Source: an uncultured Lachnospiraceae bacterium (GTDB lineage: Bacteria > Bacillota > Clostridia > Lachnospirales > Lachnospiraceae). From it: 64,000 bases of DNA. The notes under the pieces are model-generated. The model did not search any database. It saw nothing but the letters and a program-made list of their open reading frames with translations, and was not told where the DNA came from. The number at the start of each line of letters is the position of its first letter. Position 1 is the stretch's first letter. Both the position numbers and the translations under genes were made by a program. The DNA is taken from positions 1 to 64,000 of the forward strand of contig CAJODN010000007.1 of the NCBI GenBank assembly GCA_905233695.1. Reading direction: 5' to 3'. Below are positions 19,421 through 20,127 of the stretch, piece by piece.

Positions 19421-19491
19421 TAGTTACAGAATGTGATATTACATTTTCAAGAAAATGAAAAATATATATACAAAATGAAAGGGGTTTTTAT

Positions 19492-20127
19492 ATGAAGAAA
19501 GTATTTGGAGTCATTACAACTATAGCGGCAATAGGAGTAGGAGCCGTGGCCGGAAAGGTTATCTATGACGCTCTTCAGGACAAGAAGAAGAGAGAAGAGT
19601 TCGACAGGGAATTTCTAAATGATATCGAGGATGATTTCTTCGGATTCTCTGAGGCTTCCGGAAGCGCTGGTGAGTCTTCTTCGGCTAAGGAAACTGTAAG
19701 TACAATTGCGAAAGAAGCCGCAAAAGTAGCAGCAAAACAGGTTGAAGCGTCGACAGCGCCTAAGGCACCTACCGCTACGAAGAAGGTAGATGTAAGTAAG
19801 ACGAAGACATCCGCACCTAAGAAGACTAACGACAAGGCAAAGGCTGAATGTAAGAAGGCGATTGATGCAGCGGCAAATGTACTTGGTGTAACAGCAGATG
19901 AGATTCTGTCTAAGTCAAGAAAGGGCGAAGTAGCGAGTGCGAGACGTGTTGCAATATACGTATGTTCTACGGAACTTAAGATTGCGGATTCTGACATTTG
20001 CGACGGATTCGGCGGAATCGGTTCTTCCACAGTAGCCAATGCCAAGAAGAATGTAGCTGATAAGATTAAGGCTGACGACGATTTTGCGGCTGATGTAGAA
20101 GACGTTATTGATGAGGTTAACAGCTAA
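19492..20127 (+). CDS. Membrane-anchored protein with DnaA domain IV-like C-terminal DNA-binding domain
   Basis: N-terminal TM (VFGVITTIAAIGVGAVAGKVIYDAL), A/K/T-rich linker, then ANVLGVTADEILSKSRKGEVASARRVAIYVCSTELKIADSDICDGFGGIGSSTVANAKKNVADKI, which aligns by eye with DnaA domain IV. Confidence 0.75.
   Translation: MKKVFGVITTIAAIGVGAVAGKVIYDALQDKKKREEFDREFLNDIEDDFFGFSEASGSAGESSSAKETVSTIAKEAAKVAAKQVEASTAPKAPTATKKVDVSKTKTSAPKKTNDKAKAECKKAIDAAANVLGVTADEILSKSRKGEVASARRVAIYVCSTELKIADSDICDGFGGIGSSTVANAKKNVADKIKADDDFAADVEDVIDEVNS

Follow-up and report, generated by a model that had tools for sequence, protein, structure and literature searches.

A predicted membrane-anchored protein with a DnaA domain IV-like module, conserved in one Lachnospiraceae genus

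DnaA makes base-specific contacts through R399, P423, D433, H434, T435 and H439 (PMC7561715), by E. coli numbering; R399 reaches into the minor groove, and the helix that begins at residue 434 occupies the major groove (PMC5742627). Domain IV without the DnaA ATPase is already known from phages and from RAYT transposases. Stand-alone DnaA C-terminal proteins occur in many BFVD models of tailed-phage proteins, and RAYT/TnpA-REP subclass 2.1.2 carries a C-terminal Bac_DnaA_C domain that possibly plays no direct part in recognizing the target, or whose target may be newly evolved (PMC6006769). DNA is also brought to the membrane by unrelated proteins: Rv3852 of Mycobacterium tuberculosis, a nucleoid protein with a membrane anchor, carries KAAK/PAAK repeats (PMC8233713), and Noc of Bacillus subtilis acts through an N-terminal helix (PMC4331003).

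The stretch of DNA analyzed here (64,000 nucleotides; the window) encodes a 211-amino-acid protein (19492..20127, + strand) that we compared with these systems. It resembles DnaA domain IV (PF08299) in fold (TMt 0.87-0.89), helix-turn-helix layout and minor-groove arginine, but lacks domains I-III and the D433, H434 and R432 residues, is acidic, and sits on a predicted membrane helix. Like the phage proteins it has a domain IV without an ATPase. In contrast to them, its gene does not lie among phage genes and is fixed in the chromosome of 8/8 species; a 148-amino-acid phage frame on a 251-kb viral contig (L098:2917-3360) keeps RDHTTV intact and has neither a membrane segment nor a Lys-rich linker. 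The RAYT proteins likewise reuse domain IV outside DnaA but possess a Y1 transposase domain, as copies from one class-level genome (G450) also appear to; Pfam found no Y1 domain in the window protein. With Rv3852, the model proposed below shares a membrane anchor joined to a Lys/Ala-rich DNA-binding part and a narrow taxonomic range, although the Rv3852 anchor is C-terminal, it has no DnaA fold and no homology was seen; of the orthologs, only L006 matched the NCBIfam Rv3852 model (17 of 100 bits). With Noc it shares the delivery of DNA to the membrane via an N-terminal helix; however, Noc has an amphipathic helix and a ParB-type domain, neither of which was found in the window protein (no Pfam match for the latter), and no homology was seen. 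A membrane-anchored, host-conserved DnaA domain IV was not found in the open-licence literature, and the conserved, membrane-tethered host form of this stand-alone domain is what is new here.

Fold and predicted architecture

The reading frame opens with ATG, 7 bases downstream of a ribosome-binding site read directly as AAAGGGG (19478..19484, + strand); GGGGG-type sites occupy the same place in the other orthologs. Analysis of its C-terminal part revealed a Pfam Bac_DnaA_C match at residues 124-187 (19861-20052; 41.6 bits, E 1.2e-10, cut-off 31.5), and no AAA+ domain was matched by Pfam anywhere in the protein. A genome-wide scan recovered the same place together with one complete DnaA elsewhere (G000:C3, 472-aa frame). 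NCBIfam DnaA models matched through their own C-termini only (48.9 of 343.9 bits), and all significant PDB sequence matches, from single-sequence or profile searches, were to DnaA. An AlphaFold2 model built with 8 orthologs gave a confident six-helix C-terminal domain (helices 114-131, 135-138, 145-160, 166-172, 178-194 and 196-210; pLDDT 79-94, about 90 for the block), with residues 51-109 below 50. Foldseek aligned this domain with DnaA DNA-binding domains (3pvp, TMt 0.89, rmsd 1.0-1.1; 1j1v, TMt 0.87), matching the TrpR-like helical helix-turn-helix fold of domain IV. An earlier note on this DNA had proposed a domain IV-like module without the ATPase, and had named a missing DnaA_C match or a fold other than TrpR-like as grounds for abandoning the idea; both the match (Pfam, PDB) and the fold (AlphaFold2, Foldseek) were found.

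The domain IV-like region spans residues 113-211 (19828..20124, + strand). Ahead of it lie a predicted transmembrane helix (about residues 4-24; 19501..19563, + strand), a juxtamembrane acidic segment with a conserved D-x-x-DDF motif (residues 25-62; 19564..19677, + strand) and a disordered Lys/Ala/Pro-rich linker (about residues 63-112; 19678..19827, + strand; pLDDT 33-41), in the order that the note had described from the letters. The protein has a single hydrophobic segment (best KD-19 window mean 1.85, residues 6-24), with nothing comparable elsewhere; the helix is non-amphipathic (GES -27, hydrophobic moment 0.05), and a hydrophobic N-terminal segment is present by hydropathy in 8/8 orthologs. 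AlphaFold2 confidence is low in this part, and the transmembrane call combines hydropathy with conservation. In the acidic segment F41, D44, D47, D48 and F49 are invariant across the 8 orthologs, and residues 31-62 and their equivalents carry a net charge of -5 to -14. The linkers are positively charged (+3 to +13) and variable in sequence and length. Histone-like KK/AP repeats and clear KAAK/PAAK-type repeats are found in four of them (L006, L008, L009 and L010); the Lys/Ala-rich linker of the window protein has no KK repeat and belongs with the less histone-like ones. The C-terminal domain is acidic (pI 4.5-4.9, net -4 to -7), compared with a pI of 6.4 for domain IV of the genus's own DnaA. 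As read from its sequence, this small protein of gut-type bacteria is composed of a predicted membrane anchor, a Lys-rich flexible tether and a DnaA-type DNA-binding domain.

With basic residues before and after the hydrophobic helix, the sequence does not settle the topology. Three domain cysteines (C120, C158 and C170) are invariant in the 8 orthologs, a pattern that favours a reducing, cytoplasmic location, and we infer membrane insertion with the C-terminus inside. If the N-terminus were instead a signal peptide, or the C-terminus lay outside, the domain would be extracytoplasmic and unrelated to chromosomal DNA. The window protein does begin with an MKK n-region, placing positive residues ahead of a hydrophobic stretch that ends in AVAGK; however, an A-X-A site is not consistent among orthologs (ALLAK in L005, AAAVGK in L004), K22 is invariant at the would-be cleavage point, and the cysteines argue against export. 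We regard this arrangement as very unlikely.

The DNA-reading surface and DnaA boxes

Residues were mapped by an ungapped alignment to 1j1v (window residue + 256), whose 94-residue chain we take to be E. coli residues 374-467. The minor-groove reader is preserved: R143, equivalent to R399, lies in the basic loop SKSRKG (19909..19926, + strand; S140, K141, S142, R143 and K144 invariant in 8/8) and R151 (R407) is also kept. The helix-turn-helix turn and start of the recognition helix (GGIGSSTVANAKK; 20011..20049, + strand) place G177, S178 and S179 at the positions of D433, H434 and T435, as judged from ortholog and DnaA alignments. Position 433 is G or A in 8/8 orthologs compared with D in 40/42 DnaAs, position 434 is S or A compared with H in 42/42, and position 432 is Ile compared with R or K in 42/42. 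T435 is represented by S or T and H439 by N, which the genus's own DnaA has as well; P423 is also unconserved in the compared DnaA set. The reported change of RDHTTV to IGSSTV in the window protein is correct and appears throughout the family as I-(G/A)-(S/A)-(S/T)-(S/T)-V, and with D433 and H434 replaced in 8/8 the altered binding specificity that had been predicted from it is probable. K141, R143, K144, R151, R152, N183, K185 and K186 are invariant on the face that contacts DNA in DnaA, and some DNA contact by the domain is still plausible on this evidence.

The earlier note had also suggested that the protein could touch DnaA boxes or compete with DnaA, and this part was not supported. Since the major-groove readers D433 and H434 are lost, as is R432, box reading or competition with DnaA appears unlikely. 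Searches for DnaA boxes found 3 sites in the window (2.98 expected) and 29 genome-wide (26 in a reversed control), a chance level in both. Binding to DnaA-box DNA (TTWTNCACA; TTATCCACA), whether to compete with DnaA or to hold oriC at the membrane, would gain from the shared fold, the retained R399 equivalent, S/T at T435 and an N at H439 like that of the genus's own DnaA; but with two key readers replaced throughout the family and no excess of boxes near the gene or across the genome, we judge it highly improbable.

Distribution, origin and gene neighbourhood

Exactly one ortholog, besides the DnaA matches, was found in each of the 8/8 available genomes of the genus, and none outside it among 397 family genomes (334 genera), 391 class and 392 order genomes. 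These roughly 1,170 genome searches drew three overlapping sets, as samples, from larger groups, at thresholds of 1e-14 to 1e-17 that close orthologs pass and very diverged ones could miss. The survey of Lachnospiraceae that the note had called for thus gave one genus rather than a family-wide ortholog group. The few other matches that passed these thresholds were in frames as long as DnaA; the apparent relatives L018, L050-L052 and L060 (frames of 466-477 aa) were read as DnaA itself. Second Bac_DnaA_C matches (E 1e-8) were rare, occurring in only three of 195 class-level genomes: the extra copies in G450 are transposase-like, the second copy in G652 has the length of DnaA, and the window genome has the only short, non-transposase copy. 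The two G450 copies (L076 and L077) are RAYT-like transposases with C-terminal domain IV-type domains. The family sample added one genome from another Lachnospiraceae genus (G106) with a 128-aa stand-alone copy (L061:3797-4183), in which DHTTV is changed to NKTGV and which adjoins a ClpP-like protease ORF.

Domain identity is 54-100% within the family, but falls to 23-31% against the genus's own DnaA and does not exceed 39% against other DnaAs. In a tree all family members fall into a single clade (100/97) with a long branch, and the genus's own DnaA clusters with DnaAs from other Lachnospiraceae; for so short a domain and long a branch, placement beside other long branches is unreliable. Recent duplication of the genus's own dnaA was rejected on this identity and on the separate branches. 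Phage or plasmid cargo was also rejected, with one weak phage match (E 5e-3), no plasmid match and an intact RDHTTV in the sole viral locus, L098. A phage source of the domain itself is possible, because proteins made of DnaA-IV alone are frequent among structure models from tailed phages. For the pair L006/L007, domain dN was 0.075 and dS 0.75, compared with a linker dN of 0.38; the constraint is stronger on the domain, which is under purifying selection, than on the linker.

The N-terminal 62 residues alone retrieved small membrane proteins from other Lachnospiraceae, mostly in 80-120 aa frames, with a transmembrane segment and DDF-type acidic stretches but no DnaA domain. The best matches (G025, E 4e-10; G020, E 1e-9) are credible, and weaker ones could be compositional. 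Small TM and acidic (DDFDDDF) proteins that resemble the anchor part lie in several genera (L091, L093, L094, L095, L096 and L097), most of them adjoining pcrA/UvrD-like and/or RlmD/TrmA-like genes. The anchor may be older than the fusion, and the comparison suggests that the genus may have added a linker and a DnaA-IV domain to a small TM-acidic protein of this kind.

The genes upstream vary from species to species. Downstream, a block of TetR, GH2 and DUF6937/6938 is conserved, as is an MFS gene in the loci that extend far enough. The DUF6937 + DUF6938 protein (window:23327-24829), which lies downstream with GH2 and TetR, is about 90% identical within the genus. Elsewhere in the window, a coiled-coil-like protein that is rich in Gly and Ser and has a hydrophobic segment at its C-terminal end (window:15052-15987) gave a weak WXG100 match, barely above threshold (29.3 bits, cut-off 27.3). 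The surroundings of the DnaA-IV gene bear on a different function, that of a membrane-tethered transcription regulator whose helix-turn-helix would bind one or a few operators with new specificity, possibly at its own promoter, while the membrane part senses or restricts it. A new specificity that has become fixed should leave recognition-helix positions conserved in the genus yet unlike DnaA, as seen here; the gene has retained a leader of its own, in which most orthologs show a TATAAT-like element, some orthologs share by eye a TGATA-rich stretch close to the start site, and the downstream block is conserved. However, no operator was demonstrated, the upstream genes vary, and that block is more plausibly regulated by the TetR gene. 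We consider a regulatory role unlikely, though worth weighing.

In 6/8 genomes the gene for a polytopic membrane protein of about 239 aa starts about 10 bases or less past the DnaA-IV stop codon (L055:7767-8486, L056:6449-7159, L057:6091-6804, L058:7868-8587, L059:6801-7517 and L054:2276-3061); it is absent from the other two, which are the window genome and the relative whose DnaA-IV protein is most similar (G007). The polytopic protein contains the motifs FRKLMH and W-A-x-GD-x-x-AAL-x-GK, has no Pfam or NCBIfam match, and gave a model of pLDDT 66 with a best PDB match of E 0.3 only; we presume a resemblance to CTP-transferase/dolichol kinase-like proteins. Its proximity would suit a membrane scaffold in which the DnaA-IV fold was repurposed for protein binding and DNA binding was lost, as would the acidic domain, the small or hydrophobic residues at R432, D433 and H434, the invariance of the cysteines and a C-terminal helix that is acidic and conserved. 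In contrast, the invariant minor-groove arginine, the R407 equivalent and the added recognition-helix lysines would be needless without DNA binding, and we view the scaffold as improbable, if no far-fetched idea.

A candidate membrane-nucleoid tether

The best explanation, preferred to a regulator, a scaffold, a box competitor or an extracytoplasmic protein, is a bitopic membrane-nucleoid tether of one Lachnospiraceae genus with changed or relaxed DNA specificity, in which DNA binding and tethering are both inferred; we hold it tentatively, a little short of an even balance. The link between membrane and DNA raised in the earlier note is thereby graded as the best reading of a predicted anchor joined to a DnaA-IV domain. 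The N-terminal helix would lie in the cytoplasmic membrane, with a cytoplasmic part ending in the helix-turn-helix. The acidic segment could hold the membrane-proximal part away from lipid and DNA or act as a docking motif, and the flexible Lys/Ala-rich linker would provide reach and non-specific backbone contacts. The C-terminal domain would grip duplex DNA via R143 and a basic rim of K141, K144, R151, R152, K185 and K186, either with relaxed specificity or at a site that differs from the DnaA box.

The tether is consistent with the DnaA-type fold and family, the orthologs throughout the genus, the greater constraint on the domain than on the linker, the invariant basic set on the DNA face, the single non-amphipathic N-terminal helix, the cytoplasmic location that the cysteines appear to favour, and the precedents of Rv3852 (PMC8233713) and Noc (PMC4331003). 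Weighing against it are the acidity of the domain, the loss of R432, D433 and H434, the basic residues on either side of the helix, a target site that was not found and the less histone-like window linker. A bolder form, in which a host lineage made domain IV into a membrane-tethered anchor that holds the chromosome at specific sites and recognizes a sequence of its own, different from the DnaA box, is possible but doubtful.

If such a site-specific anchor were true, it would be a previously undescribed way to tie particular chromosomal sites to the membrane. A Bac_DnaA_C match need not signify replication initiation. DnaA domain IV is among the best-understood bacterial DNA-binding folds, and a genus-wide version with rewritten base readers offers a clean test case for specificity change in this fold; the same protein is a test case for direct membrane-chromosome linkage in Firmicutes.
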